In this document: positions 1 through 61,765 of the stretch, one piece after another
How the letters are laid out: each line of letters begins with the position of its first letter
Numbering within the stretch: position 1 is the stretch's first letter
Source: Hymenobacter jeollabukensis
Lineage (GTDB): Bacteria; Bacteroidota; Bacteroidia; Cytophagales; Hymenobacteraceae
DNA: 64,000 nt
Assembly: GCF_005771675.1 (NCBI RefSeq)
Contig: NZ_VAJM01000009.1
Coordinates: forward strand, 62,001-126,000
Direction: 5' to 3'
Position numbers and translations under genes: made by a program
The notes under the pieces: model-generated
The model's database searches: none
Seen by the model: the letters and a program-made list of their open reading frames with translations, nothing else
Told to the model about the DNA's origin: nothing

Positions 1-1079
1 TCCACGCGGGCCACGAAATGCTGGGCTTCGGCCCCAAGGCGCAGGCTGAGATTAGGGCGCCACTGCCAAGTGTGTTCCAGCTGGGCCTGCCGCACGCTGC
101 TGCGCGAGTGGCTGGTGCTGAGCTGGTCGTTCTGGTAGTCGATCAGGTCGCCGAACCAGGCGGCCCGTACGCTGGTTTCGCTGCGGGCGGCGCGGCGGCG
201 GTAGCCCAGCACCGCGCGGGCGCTTTGGTCCCGCTCGCGGGCGTGGTTGTTGCTGGAGCCGATGGCGGGCTGAATCTGCCGGTTGGCGTCGGTGAGCCAG
301 AGCGCAGCCGTGACTTCGCCGCGCCGGCCGACCTGCACCGTCACGTCCTGCTGCAGACTGCTCTGCGTGAGGGCCGCGTTTTCCTGGCGCCGCCGCACCT
401 CGCCCTGCAGCTCCCGGCTATAGTAATGGAAGTCGTTGTCGGCCTGCCGCACCAGGAAGCTGGTGCGCACCGCCACGCGGGCGTCGCGCTGGCTGCCGCT
501 GAAGCTGAAGGCCCGGGCCCCAAAGCTGCCCGCTTCCGCCGAGGCGCTGACCTGCGTGCCCGTTGGCGCCGTGGCCGAGCCGAGGACCACCGCGCCGCCC
601 ACCGCGCCGGTACCGTAGAGCGCCGCCGCTGGCCCGTGCTGCACGTCCACGCGGCCCAAACCGGCCACTGGCAGCAGGGAAAAATCCGCTTCGCCCAGGG
701 TCGGAAAGTTCAGGTTGAAGCCGTGCCAGAGCACCGCCGTGTGCCGCGCCGACGTGCCCCGAATCGACAAGGAAGCCAGCTGCCCCGGGCCGTAGGTGCG
801 CAGATACAGCGGCGTGCGGCCCGATAGCGCATCGGCCACCGTGCCACCCTGGTAAGGCGCCAGCGCGGCCGAGTCGAGGGAGGTGAAGCGGCTACCGGCA
901 GCGTAGCGCGTGGGCCGCAGGGCCTGCACCCGCACCGTGGGCAGCACGTGCCGGGCTGAATCAGCCGAGGCGGTACGGCCCGATTGTGCCCACGCCGGCG
1001 CGAGGCCGCTGCCAAGCAGCAGCGCTAGCCAACCGCGACCAAGCGCGGAGCAGAAACGGGGAGCGTACAACCGAACCAA
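1..1079 (-). CDS. btuB: TonB-dependent outer-membrane receptor, BtuB-like (C-terminus outside window)
   Basis: The minus-strand frame is open from the window edge to an in-frame stop at 1136-1138. About 359 N-terminal residues are visible. They begin with a signal peptide (hydrophobic WLALLLGSGLAPAWAQ). A plug domain follows at about residues 60-165, with SIRGTSARHTAVLWHG and a plug end rich in GTGAVGGAV. After it come alternating beta-strands typical of a 22-strand barrel. The role, uptake of a cobalt corrinoid using TonB energy, is inferred from the cobalamin riboswitch just upstream. No ATG or GTG exists in this frame before the signal peptide, so TTG at 1077-1079 (or 1068-1070) is the likely start. 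A frameshift at the 5' end is the alternative. Confidence 0.85.
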   Translation of the reverse strand, partial: MVRLYAPRFCSALGRGWLALLLGSGLAPAWAQSGRTASADSARHVLPTVRVQALRPTRYAAGSRFTSLDSAALAPYQGGTVADALSGRTPLYLRTYGPGQLASLSIRGTSARHTAVLWHGFNLNFPTLGEADFSLLPVAGLGRVDVQHGPAAALYGTGAVGGAVVLGSATAPTGTQVSASAEAGSFGARAFSFSGSQRDARVAVRTSFLVRQADNDFHYYSRELQGEVRRRQENAALTQSSLQQDVTVQVGRRGEVTAALWLTDANRQIQPAIGSSNNHARERDQSARAVLGYRRRAARSETSVRAAWFGDLIDYQNDQLSTSHSRSSVRQAQLEHTWQWRPNLSLRLGAEAQHFVARV

Positions 1080-1106: not shown

Positions 1107-1244
1107 AGAACCAGGCGCGCGGCCGTGTAGGCTACTTACCGGGCTGAGGCAGAATCAGGGAAGCCGGGCCCGCCGCCAGATGACGACACCGCCCAAAATG
1201 ATTCATTCTCCGCCCGTCCTCCGCAGGCGCCGAACACTAAGATG

Positions 1245-1410
1245 CGCACGGGCAGGTCTCCTGACTTGCTTCGCGCCGGGCGGCCTTCCCATTCCTCCGC
1301 CGGTCAGGTCGACCGGCATCAGCGGAACAGTGGCGAGGTGGGCCCGGCGCATGATGGAAGCTTACAGTTGCGGGGACAGCTGCCGAATTTCACGGCATTC
1401 CCTTTTCAGC
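1245..1410 (-). promoter_or_regulatory. Cobalamin (B12) riboswitch
   Basis: On the minus strand the conserved blocks of the cobalamin aptamer occur in the right order. They are AAAAGGGAA and GCCGTG (about 1396-1407), then GCTGTCCCCGCAACTGTAAGC (about 1361-1381), CACTG, GGGAAGG, and finally the B12 box AGCAAGTCAGGAGACCTGCC at 1251-1270. It lies between a repeat element and the TonB-receptor gene and is oriented to control that gene. Binding of adenosylcobalamin is known to repress such leaders. Exact ends are approximate. Confidence 0.95.
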
Positions 1411-1448
1411 CGCGCCCCCCGATTGGGGTCTGGCCACCCATGCGTGGG

Positions 1449-1508
1449 GCAAAGATAACCACGGATTCGACGGATTTTTCGGATTCCACGGATTTTGTGG
1501 ACGGCTGC
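1449..1508. repeat. GGATT-repeat element, copy 1
   Basis: Four GGATT units spaced about 9 bases apart form a 60-bp element. It aligns with the reverse complement of 57181-57242 at about 53 of 62 columns. On the minus strand it ends in TATCTTTG, which matches the Bacteroidota -7 element, about 40 bases before the riboswitch. It may therefore supply the promoter of the riboswitch/btuB unit. Confidence 0.8.
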
Positions 1509-1596: not shown

Positions 1597-2196
1597 ATGA
1601 AACTCCCGCTTGCCTACTACCGGCAGCCCGACGTGGTGGCCATTGCCCGCGACCTAGTGGGCAAATACCTCTTCAGCCGCATCGACGGCGTGCTGACCGG
1701 CGGCCGCATCGTCGAAACCGAAGCCTACGCCCACATCGACGACCAGGCCTGCCACTCCCACCTGGGCCGCTTCACCAAGCGCACCCGCGTGATGTACGAA
1801 GCCGGCGGTGTGGCCTACGTGTACCTGATTTACGGCCGCTACGCCCTGTTCAACATCATCACTAACGTGGCCGGCAAGGCCGACGCCGTGCTCATCCGGG
1901 GCCTGGAGCCCACCGAGGGCCTGCCCGAAATGCAGCTGCGCCGCGGCCTCAGCCAACCGGCCCGCAACCTCACCGCCGGCCCCGGCCTGCTCACCCAGGC
2001 CCTCGGCATCGGCGTGCCGCACTACGGCACCGACCTCACCGGCAACCTCATCTGGCTCGAAGACCGGCAGGAGCCCGTAGCCGCGGCCGATATCGTTGCC
2101 AGCCCCCGCGTCGGCATCGATTACGCCGGCGCCGATGCTGCCCTGCCGTGGCGCTTTCGCCTGAAAGGCAACCCCTGGACCAGCCCGGCGAAGTGA
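1597..2196 (+). CDS. 3-methyladenine DNA glycosylase (AAG/MPG family)
   Basis: This 199-residue protein matches the AAG/MPG fold over its full length. It would excise alkylated purines such as 3-methyladenine and hypoxanthine and so start base-excision repair. The motif VETEAY at residues 39-44 carries the expected catalytic glutamate (E42) and stacking tyrosine (Y44). H53, Y76 and Y79 sit at the spacing of human AAG His136, Tyr159 and Tyr162. The ATG at 1597 starts directly on the conserved LAYYRQPDVVAIARDLVGK region. The gene stands alone and ends in a strong hairpin. Confidence 0.95.
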   Translation: MKLPLAYYRQPDVVAIARDLVGKYLFSRIDGVLTGGRIVETEAYAHIDDQACHSHLGRFTKRTRVMYEAGGVAYVYLIYGRYALFNIITNVAGKADAVLIRGLEPTEGLPEMQLRRGLSQPARNLTAGPGLLTQALGIGVPHYGTDLTGNLIWLEDRQEPVAAADIVASPRVGIDYAGADAALPWRFRLKGNPWTSPAK

Positions 2197-55263: not shown

Positions 55264-57022
<1,759 letters not shown>

Positions 57023-57086
57023 TCAAGGATTTCGGCGGATTTCTGGCTCCGCCGACCTTCGGTTCGGATTGCACGTGTAGATGATC

Positions 57087-57120
57087 AAAAAGGTCGGGGC
57101 TTCGTGTCCCGGCCTTTTTG
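57087..57120 (+). terminator. Terminator of eno
   Basis: AAAAAGGTCGGG pairs with CCCGGCCTTTTT (one G-U pair). Confidence 0.9.
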
Positions 57121-57180
57121 TTTTGTGACCTGAACCCGCAAACAGCCCGGTAACGATGTCAACTGCTTGCGGTTGTCCGG

Positions 57181-57242
57181 GCAATCGTCCACGAAATCCG
57201 TGCAATCCGGAAAATCCGCCGGAATCCGTGATTATCTTTGGC
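57181..57242. repeat. GGATT-repeat element, copy 2 (inverted)
   Basis: This is the reverse complement of the element at 1449-1508, with AATCC units on the plus strand. It ends in TATCTTTGGC, and the DivIC-like ATG follows two bases later. Its position directly before a gene is the same as copy 1 before the riboswitch. Confidence 0.8.
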
Positions 57243-57243
57243 T

Positions 57244-57558
57244 ATGCGTTTTTCTGACGTGCTGGGGCGCGTACCACGTTTGCTGCGCAACTTTTACCTG
57301 CTCACCGGGCTGGCGTTTTTGGTGTGGATGCTGCTGTTTGACTCGAACGACCTGCTGAAGCAGTACGAGATGCTCGATAAGTACCGCGAGTTGCAGGAGC
57401 AGAAGCAGTACTATACCGGCAAAATAGAGGAGGTAAAACAGGATCGGGCCGAGCTGTTGAGCAGTCCGGAGATGCTGGAAAAGTTTGCCCGCGAGAAATA
57501 CGTGATGAAGCGGCCGGGGGAGGACGTGTTCTTGCTGGTGCCGGAGGAGAAGGAATAG
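57244..57558 (+). CDS. DivIC/FtsB-like septum protein
   Basis: The 104-residue protein has one membrane helix (about residues 16-34, FYLLTGLAFLVWMLLFDSN), a coiled coil (about 40-75, with QEQKQYYTGKIEEVKQDRA) and a short C-terminal domain with FAREKYVMKRPGEDVFLL, the FtsB/DivIC signature. It should act in the divisome at the inner membrane with FtsL and FtsQ. ATG at 57244 starts two bases after the repeat element. Confidence 0.92.
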   Translation: MRFSDVLGRVPRLLRNFYLLTGLAFLVWMLLFDSNDLLKQYEMLDKYRELQEQKQYYTGKIEEVKQDRAELLSSPEMLEKFAREKYVMKRPGEDVFLLVPEEKE

Positions 57559-57754
57559 CGCGGCTGTAGCGCAAGGCTGGTTATCAGCTCATTCGGCTGA
57601 TGCTTGTACAAAGGGCAGGTGAATTATGACGCCTCATTGCGCAACGCGTGATGATTGGGTGTTTATTGTAATATTTTGTGGGTGGGCTAAAACTCTGAGT
57701 GATTTTTCGCCTTAACTTTCGGAGTTCATTCTAACCAACAAATCATTTTTGGAT

Positions 57755-60700
57755 ATGGAGAAGCCCTACTTTTCGAGGTACGGTAACAAGCTCCGGCTGT
57801 TAACATGGCTGGTAATGAGCTGGTTGGGCCTACAGCAGGCCGCCGCTCAAACGTACACCATGCCGGTAACCGGCAGCAACACCATCACCACCTGCGCGGG
57901 AACCCTGTATGACAACGGCGGAGCCAATGGCCCCTACGTCGGTAACACCGGCTCCCTGACCATCATGCCGGCTACCACCGGCAACAAGGTGCAGCTCACG
58001 TTTTCGTCGGTATCGATTGATTACTACGATTACCTGACCATCTACGACGGCACCAGCACGTCGGCCCCGATTATCGGCACGTACTACGGCACTGCCAACA
58101 TCGGAACGGTGTATGGTACGTCGACCAGCGGGGCCATCACGCTGCGCCTGACCGGCACCAACTACTACGGCTACACTGGTTTTGCGGCCAGCATTGCCTG
58201 CGTAACCAGCGTGCCGCAGCCTGACCTGGCCGTGCAGGGCGCTTCCGCTTACCCGCTGTCGGCGGTGGCGGGCAGCTACCTCTCGCTGAGCTGCAGCATC
58301 TACAACCTCTCGGGCACTACGGCCACGAGCAGCAACGTGGGCTACTACCTCTCGACGGACAACACGCTGAGTTCTTCGGACCAACTGCTGGGCTACTCCA
58401 CGGGCTACGCGCTGGCCGTGGGCGGATCGTCGTCGCGGAGCGCTTCGGTGCAGATTCCGACGACGGTGGCGCCCGGTTCGTACTACCTGCTGTTTGCGGG
58501 CGACTACGATAACCTCGTCAACGAAAGCAACGAGAACAACAACGTCGCCAGCGTGTCATTCACGGTCAGCTCGCCGACCTACGACCTGGTGATTCAGACG
58601 CCGAGCGTGACGCCGACCTCGGTGGCGCAGGGCGGTACGCTCTCGCTTTCGTGCTACATCAGCAACCTGGGCAACGCCACGACGACCTCGAGCAGCGTGG
58701 GCTACTATCTCTCGAGCAACACTACGCTGGACGCTTCGGACGTGCTGCTGACCTCGACCTACGGCGGCTCATTGGCTCCTTCGTCGTTTGGCACCAGCCG
58801 CTACGGCTACACCAACATCCCGACGACGACGCCGACGGGCAGCTACTACGTGCTGTTCGTGGCCGACTACCAAGGGCTGGTTTCGGAAAGCAACGAAACC
58901 AACAACGTCGCCTCGGTGGCCATTACGGTGTCGCCGCCCGGCGTTGACCTGCAGATTCAGCAGGCCCAGTTGGGCAGCACTTCGGTGCTGGCCGGCTCGA
59001 GCATCTACGCCTCGGGCTACCTCTATAATACTGGCAACACCAACGCCGGCGCTCATCGGGTGGGTTACTACCTGTCGAGCAACACCACCTTCGACGCCTC
59101 GGACGTGCTGCTCTCGAGCGGCAGCGTAACCAGCCTGACGGCCGGTCAGTACCTCTCGCTGTACCCGACGCTGACCATTCCGTCGTCGACTACCACCGGC
59201 AGCTACTACGTGCTGTTCGTGGCCGACGACCAGGCCCAGGTGACGGAAACCAACGAAACCAACAACGTGGCCAGCGTGGCCCTGACGGTGACGCAGCCGA
59301 ACGTGGACCTGCAGATTCAGCAGGCTACGCTGACGCCCACGACGACCACGGCCGGGGGCAGCGTGTACGCCAGCTGCAACATCTACAACGCCGGTACCAC
59401 CTACGCCTCCTCGTCGTACGTGGGCTACTACCTCTCGACCAACACCACGCTGGACGCTTCGGATACCTATCTGAACTACGCGTACGGCAGCTCCCTGTCG
59501 GGTGGCTACAGCTCGTCGCGGGCAATGTCGCTGACGATTCCGTCGTCGACGGCTACCGGCAGCTACTACATCCTGTTCGTGGCCGATTACCAGGGCCAGG
59601 AGGCGGAGACCAACGAAACCAACAACGTGGCCAGTGTGGCCCTGACGGTGACGGCTCCGAACGTGGACCTGGTCATTCAGCAAGCGACGCTGACGCCCAC
59701 GACAACCTCCGCCGGGGGCAGCGTGTATGCCTCCAGCAGCATCTATAACCAGGGCACCACCCAGGCGCTGTACAGCCCCGTGGGCTACTACCTCTCGACC
59801 AACACCACGCTGGACGCTGCGGATACTTACTTGAGCTCCTCGTACGGCAGCACGCTGTCGGGCGGTTTCAGCTCGTCGCGCACGGCTACGCTCTACATTC
59901 CGACCGGTACCGCGGCGGGCAGCTACTACGTGCTGTTCGTGGCCGACTATCAGGCGCAGGTGACGGAAACCAACGAAAACAACAACGTGAGCAGTGTGGC
60001 GCTGACGGTACTGCCGCCCAGCCCCGACCTGACCGTGAACAGCTTCTACCCGGCTTCGTACTACCTGAACTCCGGCTCCAGCACTGCCGTGTCGGGCTAC
60101 GTGTACAACCAGGGACAGGCCTCGGCCACGTCGAGCAACGCTGGTTTCTACCTCTCGACGGATGCCTCCTTCAGCACCAACGACGTGCTGCTGGCCAGCA
60201 GCACCGGCGGCGCGCTGAGCGCCGGCGCGTCGAGCTACCGTACGTCGACCGTGACGATTCCGGCCGCCACGGCCACCGGTACGTACTACCTGCTGTTTGT
60301 GGCCGACGACCAGGCCCAGGTGACGGAAAGCAACGAAACCAACAACGTGGCTTACTACTCGGTCTACGTGACGAACGTCGCGCCGATCAACGGTACCCTG
60401 GTTCCGTACTCGGGCTCGGCCAGCATTACCAGCTGCAGCACCAACATTTACGACAACGGGGGCAACGGCCTCTACTCCAACTATTCGGACGGCTCGCTGA
60501 CGGTTAACCCCGGCACGACCGGTAGCAAGGTGCGCCTCACGTTCAGCACGTTTAGCGTTGAAACCTGCTGCGACTACCTCATGATCTACGATGGCACGAG
60601 CACCAACTCGCCGTTGCTAGGTACTTACAGCTACAACCCGGGCGTGGTAACGGCGTCGAGCACCAATTCGAGCGGTGCGCTGACCGTACGCTTTGTTTCC

Positions 60701-61765
60701 AACAGCAGCGGCACTTACGCGGGTTTCGAAGCCGCCGTATCGTGCGTGACGACCGTGCCGGCCGACCTGACGCTGACGCAGGTAACTGCTACACCCACGA
60801 CCGTTATGGCCGGTGGCACCACTACCGTGAGCCTGAGCGTGAACAACGTGGGCGCCGGCGCGGCTGCTTCGACGCCGGTGGCCTACTACCTCTCGGCCGA
60901 CAATACGCTGGATGCCGCTGACCGTCTGCTGGCCAACGTGACCGGCGCGGGCCTGAACGCCAACACCAGCGTGACGCGCAGCAACGTGGTGACGATTCCG
61001 TCGACTACCACGGCCGGCAGCTACTACCTGATCTGCGCTGCTGACGCCAACAACGTGGTGACGGAAAGCAACGAGAACAACAACGTGGCTACGGGCGTCG
61101 CCATCACCGTGACGGCCGTTACCGCCGACCTGGCGGTCAGCTCGCCGACGCTGACGCCGACCACGGTAATGGCCGGCAACAACGTGACGGCAACCTGCTT
61201 CTACGAAAATGCCGGTATGGTAAGCTCCAGCGCCCATACGCTTGGTTTCTACCTCTCGACCGACGCTACCTTCAGCACCAACGACGTACTGCTGCACAGC
61301 ATCAGCATTCCTTCGATGGCAGCCGGCAGCGGCCTGACGCGCGTAGGCACCTTTGCCATTCCGGCCGCCACGGCCGCTGGCAACTACTACCTGCTCTACG
61401 TGGCCGACGCGCAAGGGCAGATTACCGAAGGCAACGAAGTCAACAACATCGCCAGCCAGGCCCTGACCGTGACCGTCAACACGGCCGCACGGGAGCAGTC
61501 GGCGGGCTTTGCCATCACCCTGCACCCCAATCCCACCGCCACGGGCCAGCCCTTCCTGGTGGAGTTTGCGGGCAACGGCACGGCCCCGGCGGCCAACCTG
61601 GCGCTGTACAACAGCCTCGGTCAGCTGGTGAGCGAGCAGCGGGCTACGCTGCGCGGCAGTGCGGCTCCGGTGAGTGTTTCGACGGCGGGCCTGGCCCGTG
61701 GCGTGTACACCCTGCGCATCACCGGCGAGAAGCTGAACGCCACGCGTCAGGTTATCGTCGACTAA
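57755..61765 (+). CDS. Secreted CUB/CARDB repeat protein with type IX sorting domain
   Basis: The 1336-residue protein has a signal peptide (residues 1-32, ending AAAQ) and a CUB-like domain (about 33-150, TTCAGTLYDNGG). Eight CARDB repeats start at residues 157, 277, 398, 518, 638, 758, 1004 and 1125. A second CUB-like domain lies at about 878-1000 (SCSTNIYDNGGNG). A C-terminal sorting domain follows from about 1245 (LHPNPTATGQPF, with LARGVYTLRITG). CARDB modules are adhesion-type beta-sandwiches. It is probably exported by the type IX system to the cell surface. ATG 57755 is preferred to TTG two codons earlier. Confidence 0.92.
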   Translation: MEKPYFSRYGNKLRLLTWLVMSWLGLQQAAAQTYTMPVTGSNTITTCAGTLYDNGGANGPYVGNTGSLTIMPATTGNKVQLTFSSVSIDYYDYLTIYDGTSTSAPIIGTYYGTANIGTVYGTSTSGAITLRLTGTNYYGYTGFAASIACVTSVPQPDLAVQGASAYPLSAVAGSYLSLSCSIYNLSGTTATSSNVGYYLSTDNTLSSSDQLLGYSTGYALAVGGSSSRSASVQIPTTVAPGSYYLLFAGDYDNLVNESNENNNVASVSFTVSSPTYDLVIQTPSVTPTSVAQGGTLSLSCYISNLGNATTTSSSVGYYLSSNTTLDASDVLLTSTYGGSLAPSSFGTSRYGYTNIPTTTPTGSYYVLFVADYQGLVSESNETNNVASVAITVSPPGVDLQIQQAQLGSTSVLAGSSIYASGYLYNTGNTNAGAHRVGYYLSSNTTFDASDVLLSSGSVTSLTAGQYLSLYPTLTIPSSTTTGSYYVLFVADDQAQVTETNETNNVASVALTVTQPNVDLQIQQATLTPTTTTAGGSVYASCNIYNAGTTYASSSYVGYYLSTNTTLDASDTYLNYAYGSSLSGGYSSSRAMSLTIPSSTATGSYYILFVADYQGQEAETNETNNVASVALTVTAPNVDLVIQQATLTPTTTSAGGSVYASSSIYNQGTTQALYSPVGYYLSTNTTLDAADTYLSSSYGSTLSGGFSSSRTATLYIPTGTAAGSYYVLFVADYQAQVTETNENNNVSSVALTVLPPSPDLTVNSFYPASYYLNSGSSTAVSGYVYNQGQASATSSNAGFYLSTDASFSTNDVLLASSTGGALSAGASSYRTSTVTIPAATATGTYYLLFVADDQAQVTESNETNNVAYYSVYVTNVAPINGTLVPYSGSASITSCSTNIYDNGGNGLYSNYSDGSLTVNPGTTGSKVRLTFSTFSVETCCDYLMIYDGTSTNSPLLGTYSYNPGVVTASSTNSSGALTVRFVSNSSGTYAGFEAAVSCVTTVPADLTLTQVTATPTTVMAGGTTTVSLSVNNVGAGAAASTPVAYYLSADNTLDAADRLLANVTGAGLNANTSVTRSNVVTIPSTTTAGSYYLICAADANNVVTESNENNNVATGVAITVTAVTADLAVSSPTLTPTTVMAGNNVTATCFYENAGMVSSSAHTLGFYLSTDATFSTNDVLLHSISIPSMAAGSGLTRVGTFAIPAATAAGNYYLLYVADAQGQITEGNEVNNIASQALTVTVNTAAREQSAGFAITLHPNPTATGQPFLVEFAGNGTAPAANLALYNSLGQLVSEQRATLRGSAAPVSVSTAGLARGVYTLRITGEKLNATRQVIVD

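Follow-up and report, generated by a model that had tools for sequence, protein, structure and literature searches.

The sequences described below resemble four known kinds of short repeat or small element. REPs, 20–40-bp palindromes with a tag, stand in large numbers between genes, often at the ends of genes as inverted pairs; a minority of them flank a gene that possibly moves them and that encodes a tyrosine transposase (RAYT; PMC3733652). The IVS that carry S23p/IVP (PF05635) are short elements with one small ORF and stem-forming terminal inverted repeats, located within 23S rRNA and excised by RNase III (PMC4990558). Arrays of the TAACTGA heptamer, described by MacGregor in 2015, are short direct repeats, the largest class of which ends 1 nt before a start codon (PMC4679880). 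The BrickBuilt MITE of Porphyromonas gingivalis, also a member of the Bacteroidota, has tandem 23-nt units and inverted ends and lies 49–591 nt from the nearest coding sequence (PMC4596501).

The DNA analysed here is a stretch of 64,000 nt (the window) from the 6.18-Mb draft genome of Hymenobacter jeollabukensis (Bacteroidota; 27 contigs; G000). A sequence-only reading of the window had pointed out two copies, in opposite orientation, of a 62-bp element built of GGATT units every 9–10 nt, and the alignment of the two copies is as it described. The limits of the element had to be redrawn: the repeat proper is confined to the intervals given in Table 1, a third, degenerate copy was added, and the sequence TATCTTTG, said to end both copies, does adjoin both of them but lies outside the repeat. 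Genes were called with a simple gene finder trained on the window together with the loci retrieved, and its calls agreed with Pfam in the four window genes checked.

Table 1. Features of the window around the two repeat copies
Feature	Position	Strand	Basis
TonB-dependent receptor gene	3-947	-	Pfam Plug
Cobalamin riboswitch, leader of the TonB-dependent receptor gene	1234-1456	-	Rfam RF00174, 99.3 bits
TATCTTTG beside copy 1, putative host promoter box of the riboswitch leader	1449-1456	-	sequence; promoter role by inference
Copy 1 arm, outer end toward the cobalamin riboswitch leader	1457-1506	-	R1 model, E 4.9e-16
Methylpurine-DNA glycosylase gene, inner side of copy 1	1597-2196	+	Pfam PF02245
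Enolase gene, stop codon adjoining the partner arm	55751-57022	+	Pfam
Degenerate partner arm of copy 2	57021-57075	-	weak R1 match (E 0.5), fold pairing, partner match
Intrinsic terminator hairpin between copy 2 and its partner arm	57087-57119	+	sequence; hairpin in fold
Copy 2 arm	57182-57233	+	R1 model, E 3.2e-16; alignment A2
TATCTTTG, outside the repeat; -7-like host box in the DivIC promoter	57233-57240	+	present in G001, G004, G005 and G007 without the repeat
DivIC/septum formation initiator gene, following copy 2	57244-57558	+	Pfam PF04977

The inner end of copy 2 (AATCGTCC) lies to the left and its outer end (CCGTGATT) to the right, abutting the promoter box of the DivIC gene. The degenerate copy is flush with the enolase stop codon and contains an insert of about 20 nt. 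Its match alone is not significant; it was taken as the partner of copy 2 because it directly follows the stop codon of enolase, base-pairs with that copy in the predicted fold and was its best match of 13. Copy 2 and this decayed partner enclose the terminator behind enolase, and the RNA of positions 57020-57243 is predicted to form one long stem around that terminator (z -7.4); a second arm pair gave z -16 in its predicted RNA fold. No partner arm was detected for copy 1. Further along the window, a large ORF (57749-61765) contains a tandem repeat with a 360-bp period (59168-60009; 2.3 copies, 81% matches).

That the repeat is dispersed, as had been proposed, is borne out by the genome, which holds about 60 copies. 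A 24-nt pattern of three units, with at most two mismatches, matched the genome 70 times and its reversed form not at all, so that the repeat is not a product of chance. We built a sequence-only model (R1) from 29 copies, copies 1 and 2 among them (alignment A2); of the roughly 3000 candidates from a first look, 150 received a score. R1 found 68 places in G000 up to E 1 and 59 at E <= 0.001, one of which (C23:159029) was taken as a chance match. BLAST with copy 2 as query missed copy 1. For the description of positions we examined 62 matches, that is, the 68 minus the six weakest (E 0.014-0.41), the partner arm in the window being kept; two apparent chance matches inside genes were then dropped, leaving 60 for later counts. 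Each arm, as we call the repeat, is about 50 bp long and has five GATT-type units, with the consensus AATCGTCCACGAAATCCGTGnAATCCGAAAAATCCGTCGAATCCGTGGTC, inner end first. Among the 38 genomes searched (G000 counted), 16 have R1 matches at E <= 0.001, and the numbers within the genus vary widely (G001 67, G006 43, G003 25, G005 16, G004 4, G002 3, G007 0).

Other short sequences accompany the arms. An insert of 20-22 nt (e.g. AAACGAAGTTCGGCGTAGCC) occurs within arms at varying unit junctions and differs in presence between orthologous arms; it was seen in G000 at C22:347515, C15:62545, C2:190336 and C4:14292, as well as in the window at 57021-57075. At L059, L062, L088, L096 and L104, the terminator palindrome GTGGTGCCACGACTTTGGAGTCGTGGCACCAC and its variants, standing behind several arms, form a repeat in their own right.

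The position of the arms relative to genes is precise. The outer end faces a gene stop in 37 of the 62 matches and a start or upstream side in 25, two of which are the apparent chance matches inside genes. In 35 of the 37 stop-facing arms the gap to the stop codon is at most 3 nt (one of these overlaps the called gene by 9 nt), and in the other two it is 8 and 9 nt; if arms were placed uniformly in these gaps, the probability of this would have a log10 of -59. On the start side, nine arms directly abut a TAnnTTTG sequence (9/60, against 41/18800 for random 14-mers in the same loci), ten abut a called start codon or contain a called GTG start, these start calls being tentative, and four touch nothing that we could name. 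Stop, TAnnTTTG and start-codon tallies together make 54 of the 60 arms flush. The sequence-only reading had the element lying just before a gene, which holds for copies 1 and 2 only; an orientation bias toward genes does exist, but its rule is that the outer end stands at a coding or promoter boundary, mostly a stop codon.

The stops themselves are ancestral in most of the orthologue rows listed: the orthologous proteins end at the same residue there and differ by 1-4 residues in a few, and truncation of genes by insertion was rejected on these grounds. We then asked what follows the orthologous stops of the 37 stop-facing cases, calling arm-like any sequence whose score exceeded 99.9% of those of shuffled sequence. 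Arm-like sequence was present at 24/35 stops in G001, 8/13 in G006 and 3/33 in G002, and a control stretch further downstream of the same stops gave 0/35, 0/13 and 0/33, respectively. Many arm sites are therefore common by descent, and in G002 they are mostly absent or decayed. At one G000 locus (L074, C5:94892-94943), the arm, by our reading, apparently encodes the first residues of a lipoprotein signal peptide (MRIFRIARISWTIG...); the G001 ortholog of this gene is present without the arm.

Such constancy of position and orientation at coding boundaries, together with the arm-like sequence at orthologous stops in G001 and G006, is what one would expect of host regulatory sites, that is, DNA or RNA sites at which a post-transcriptional or termination factor acts at gene ends or starts. 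MacGregor likewise proposed translational regulation for TAACTGA arrays near start codons (PMC4679880). We nevertheless regard this reading as improbable: G002, which is close to G000, has arm-like sequence at so few of these stops and only three matches genome-wide, the flanked genes share no function that we could see by eye, one placement serves stops, starts and promoters alike, and similar arms enclose cargo genes in several phyla (see below).

The promoter box deserves separate consideration. Both window copies end against TATCTTTG, which is of the form TAnnTTTG, presumably the Bacteroidota -7 element, and the original proposal was that the repeat itself carries a promoter. In the gap between enolase and DivIC, TATCTTTG is found just before the DivIC ATG in G001, G004, G005 and G007, where the repeat is absent; G002 has TATCTTTA there, G003 has no such box and G006 has a different gene next to enolase. 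The box at the DivIC gene is thus the host's and separate from the repeat, since relatives have it without the repeat and only 9 of the 60 arms adjoin one. By analogy with the enolase-DivIC gap, the box beside copy 1 would likewise be a host promoter box. Although a TAnnTTTG does stand beside those nine arms, and TATCTTTG beside both window copies, a promoter-carrying repeat is contradicted by the four relatives, and the 51 arms without a box add to this; we consider that proposal almost certainly wrong.

Arms often come in pairs. We counted 13 pairs of arms within 400 bp of each other in G000, all in -/+ orientation, with 102-246 bp of inner DNA; 34 of the 60 arms have no partner within 400 bp. 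Partner arms are more similar to each other than to other arms of the same genome (0.908 vs 0.884 over 32 pairs, 0/20000 permutations) when gaps are ignored, and not significantly so (p 0.07) when gaps are counted. The 32 pairs comprise the 13 from G000 (p 0.00035 alone) and 19 from relatives (p 0.0048), the latter chosen by eye from the R1 list. The 13 pairs, with terminal inverted repeats around a non-coding interior, have the build of a MITE. We considered a single MITE family and rejected it, the spacers of the 13 pairs being unlike and having no common interior. By eye and BLAST these spacers are mostly unrelated, and three have a second, nested inverted repeat. In the latter (L069, L072 and L071; C2:188774, C4:33795 and C4:14292), the second repeat family, GTCATTGCGAGCGAAGCGCGGCAATC and its variants, forms its own inverted pair inside the arms and around the terminator, giving concentric inverted repeats; sequence like the 20-22-nt insert also occurs inside this family.

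The content of more widely spaced pairs was informative. Five such pairs were read in relatives (G001, G005 and G006), and in three of them the arms stand around a gene of the GxxExxY family (TIGR04256, E 7e-41 to 3e-43; also PF13366). The remaining two (L143 and L146) have no GxxExxY gene: one holds a 125-aa ORF without a Pfam match and the other nothing clear. We then performed the converse test, comparing the two flanks of 30 loci of PF13366 genes in 38 relatives, and of 30 loci each of PF05635 (S23/IVP) and, as control, PIN genes. Inverted arms scoring >= 15 were found at 22/28 PF13366 loci and 26/29 PF05635 loci (loci with long enough flanks) and at 0/30 PIN controls; at >= 20 the numbers were 18, 14 and 0. 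Shifted windows of the same loci gave none at either limit in any of the three families. Mismatched locus pairs reached >= 15 in 17, 21 and 9 of 400 cases and >= 20 in 4, 15 and 7 (PF13366, PF05635 and PIN, respectively). Genus g55 and G115 provided 19 more GxxExxY loci, which partly represent the same site in several genomes; of these, only 6/19 scored >= 15 and 1/19 scored >= 20.

The arms differ with the enclosed gene. Units are about 7 nt long around PF05635 genes and 9-10 nt around PF13366 genes. Within PF13366, GATT units accompany 16/19 GxGFxE-type genes and 0/7 GPGLLE-type genes, whose arms have CAGAG/CAAAG-type units; the two types were assigned by us from the protein sequences, and two of the 28 loci fell below a score limit of 12. 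The arm unit follows the GxxExxY protein subfamily. In three genomes the PF13366 match lies inside an 883-aa open frame, possibly a domain fusion (G063:C9:91047, G075:C22:338274 and G091:C1:72351). G000 itself holds three PF05635 genes (C23:275263, L282; C5:220922; C12:419342), one with an in-frame stop; the gene at L282, with the stop in its open frame, is flanked by 7-nt arms.

We know of no context, partner sequence or role for the GxxExxY and S23/IVP families, and in the papers found to name it GxxExxY appears as incidental annotation only. In 24 GxxExxY proteins (alignment A3), H22, E31, Y34, D70, E80 and K82 are invariant, and D70, E80 and K82 correspond to the D...ExK core of PD-(D/E)XK proteins (Pfam PF13366). 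A search of PDB sequences with A3 gave nothing up to E 1. The predicted structure (pLDDT 89, pTM 0.82) best matches Cas4 SSO0001 (Foldseek E 5e-4; VIA Z 9.6 over 103 residues at rmsd 4.9), and restriction enzymes and Hjc resolvase match less well (Z under 8); absence from the list of folds was not counted as excluding any family. The model supports a nuclease fold and says nothing on function.

We compared three elements across six genomes of genus g55, reading each site singly and without a tree. Between an AspA-like gene and scpB, the gap measures 438-439 bp in G063, G091 and G136, where the element extends from the stop to 6-8 nt before the start; G075 has a decayed copy of 349 bp, and the gap is empty in G106 (15 nt) and G102 (14 nt), measured to the aligned start, an earlier in-frame ATG lying by eye 2-3 nt past the stop in both. 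Between sdhC and sdhA, the 458-459 bp of G063, G091 and G102 include arms that come within a few nt of either gene, an empty gap of 15-16 bp is found in G106 and G075, and the 35 bp of G136 apparently retain the right end of the element. At the third site (552-553 bp in G063, G075 and G136), the arm is not flush but about 20 nt from the stop, and the 119 bp of G091 are apparently arms without cargo. The element is present or absent as a unit, and gain and loss cannot be told apart case by case. No target-site duplication was noticed by eye at the three filled/empty sites. The arms-only state at an orthologous site gives cargo-less arms an origin.

These comparisons bear on how the arms came to be flush. 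The position could be secondary, a random intergenic insertion being followed by loss of spare DNA, and this would be compatible with a mobile origin of the arms; the elements are old and common to orthologous sites, which leaves time for such loss. Yet almost all stop-facing outer ends lie within 3 nt of the stop while the inner DNA of the 13 G000 pairs has been retained, and empty operon sites, by eye in the junctions listed, already have gaps of 2-13 nt. We therefore find secondary flushness rather unlikely. Candidate steps are insertion directed to the border of untranslated DNA and very strong filtering. Selection could explain much in operons, whose genes are so close together that an insertion must be flush to keep both of them whole; in the genus of the window, with its longer gaps, selection alone seems insufficient.

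We extended the analysis to other phyla by scanning GTDB contigs for loci of the GNGFQE subfamily. The best 80 of at least 567 relatives belong, according to their record titles, mainly to Bacteroidota, but also to Chlorobiota, Cyanobacteria, Chloroflexota, Nitrospirae, Calditrichota, Spirochaetes and Fibrobacter. Among the 76 of these loci with enough flank, inward GATT arrays of at least three units stand on both flanks in 24 and on at least one flank in 57, as compared to 0/66 and 1/66 in shifted windows and 5 and 27 for arrays in the wrong orientation. The outer end of these arms, GTCTGAACTATGATT, occurs in both flanks of 35/76 loci and in none of the shifted controls. An inverted-arm score >= 20 was reached by 19/76 loci and by 39/600 mismatched pairs; because the arms are alike between loci, mismatched pairs also pass, and we relied on the shifted and PIN controls. 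With a second model (R2) made from 49 GTDB GATT arms (alignment A5), arms were found in 22 of 118 Bacteroidota genomes, 58 of which have PF13366. The family is present in 19/22 genomes with R2 arms and in 39/96 without (Fisher p 1e-4); G042, G060 and G108 have R2 arms and no PF13366 gene.

Outer ends of these wider sets also lie at gene boundaries. An ORF boundary is within 15 nt of 31/42 outer ends at PF05635 loci with an arm score >= 17 (random shifted positions 67/2100) and of 21/36 outer ends at PF13366 loci of relatives with a score >= 20 (random shifted positions 102/1800). In the GTDB set, 57/87 outer ends have an ORF of at least 100 aa ending between -400 and +25; 18 of these ORFs end more than 60 nt away and are not flush, and the other 39 end from -15 to +23, most often at +6 and at +13/14, positions at which the arm contains TGA. 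Some of the stop codons in the GTDB set may thus come from the arm itself, since 31/49 GATT arms have stops in all three frames when read inward, against 0/60 in G000. Both outer motifs are present at 31 GTDB loci, and 15 of these have ORFs within 25 nt on both sides. For these 15, Pfam was applied to 20/30 neighbouring proteins; left and right genes differ, and several of the proteins checked have an intact C-terminus. By Pfam, 8/15 loci contain RhuM or type I restriction-modification genes, as does a ninth (L307) by eye. Many GxxExxY elements thus stand within type I restriction-modification operons or beside RhuM genes (L309, L315, L316, L318, L328, L338, L340 and L367).

Arms flank GxxExxY genes, filled and empty sites exist, and at one site arms remain where relatives have the gene. 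We consider it probable (roughly 0.65) that the window repeats are cargo-less terminal arms of small elements of the GxxExxY type. The full element consists of an arm, one small gene and an inverted arm, and the cases read span about 430-820 bp. Each arm is an array of short units directed inward, and its outer end usually adjoins the stop codon, start codon or promoter box of a neighbouring gene. The product of the small gene in relatives is a GxxExxY protein, for which a PD-(D/E)XK nuclease fold is predicted, and this protein may recognise the arm units of its own element and cut DNA during spread. The G000 arms would have been left by such elements or moved by them in trans, the solitary ones being non-autonomous or decaying. 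In favour of this we count the three of five pairs with TIGR04256, the inverted-arm counts, the GTDB arrays, the match with protein subfamily, the co-occurrence across genomes, the similarity of partners and the empty, filled, decayed and arms-only sites. Copy 2 and its degenerate partner are inverted, inward unit arrays, and both window copies and the partner have their outer ends flush with a coding or promoter boundary.

Several observations count against it. At E <= 1e-6 there is no PF13366 gene in G000, despite its 59 arm matches, nor in G003, despite its 25, and tblastn found no GxxExxY remnants in the G000 loci taken from the genome (best E 0.88); the absence from G000 is why we file the window copies only as cargo-less relatives. 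The unrelated spacers, the 34/60 unpaired arms, the lack of a GxxExxY gene in L143 and L146, the 6/19 further loci and the fact that neither a target duplication was noticed nor a transposition seen weigh in the same direction. With copies far outnumbering GxxExxY genes, and none of these in G000, one could suppose a REP- or MITE-like repeat mobilised by another enzyme, the GxxExxY and S23 genes being passengers; REPs too lie downstream of genes, and they form inverted dimers (PMC3733652). A passenger is not predicted to track the arm units, as GxxExxY subfamilies do, and two protein families share an equal layout with unlike units, so that we judge mobilisation by another enzyme unlikely.

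GxxExxY and S23/IVP might, as a tentative and rather doubtful generalisation, define one minimal class of mobile element. Each protein would recognise its own arms and insert them exactly where translated DNA borders on untranslated DNA (at stop codons, start codons or the upstream edge of the promoter bubble), perhaps cutting at the single-stranded DNA fork of transcription; orphan arms would then be found in many phyla and include some 'regulatory' TAACTGA arrays. With the preferred reading of the window repeats as cargo-less arms, two common protein families acquire a genomic context, a sequence partner and a role that can be tested; the reading also offers a likely origin for a type of repeat found in several phyla. 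Arms standing exactly at gene ends also carry a risk of false calls of promoters, regulatory sites or start codons.

Among open-licence papers, preprints excluded, we found no published description of GxxExxY arms; the nearest are MacGregor's TAACTGA repeats. How the arms relate to the systems introduced above is as follows. Like REPs, the arms are short, numerous and intergenic, are often paired and inverted where genes end, and in a minority of cases flank a gene whose product possibly moves them (PMC3733652). They differ in being direct-unit arrays: alignment A2 shows direct units, and a short CACG/CGTG match is by eye broken in many copies. The arm-linked gene has a PD-(D/E)XK fold in place of a tyrosine transposase, and the arms are flush with coding boundaries; a CGTC does occur near the inner end of the arm consensus (REP tags are GTAG or CGTC). 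With the IVS of 23S rRNA the elements have in common their small size, single small ORF and stem-forming terminal inverted repeats (PMC4990558), and in our analysis PF05635 genes also lie between other genes with the same arm layout. Unlike the IVS, the window arms lie between protein genes and have other units; Rfam detected no rRNA in the window, and the neighbours of the copies are, by our gene calls, protein genes. BrickBuilt shares the Bacteroidota host, the tandem units and the inverted ends, but its units are of 23 nt and its distance from coding sequence means that it is not flush (PMC4596501). The TAACTGA arrays differ from GATT arms in heptamer sequence and were read as translational regulation, in a text that does not mention S23 (PMC4679880). 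Being short direct repeats with stops in three frames, they are similar to the 31/49 GATT arms, in contrast to the 60 arms of G000, and they resemble the 7-nt arms of PF05635 genes.
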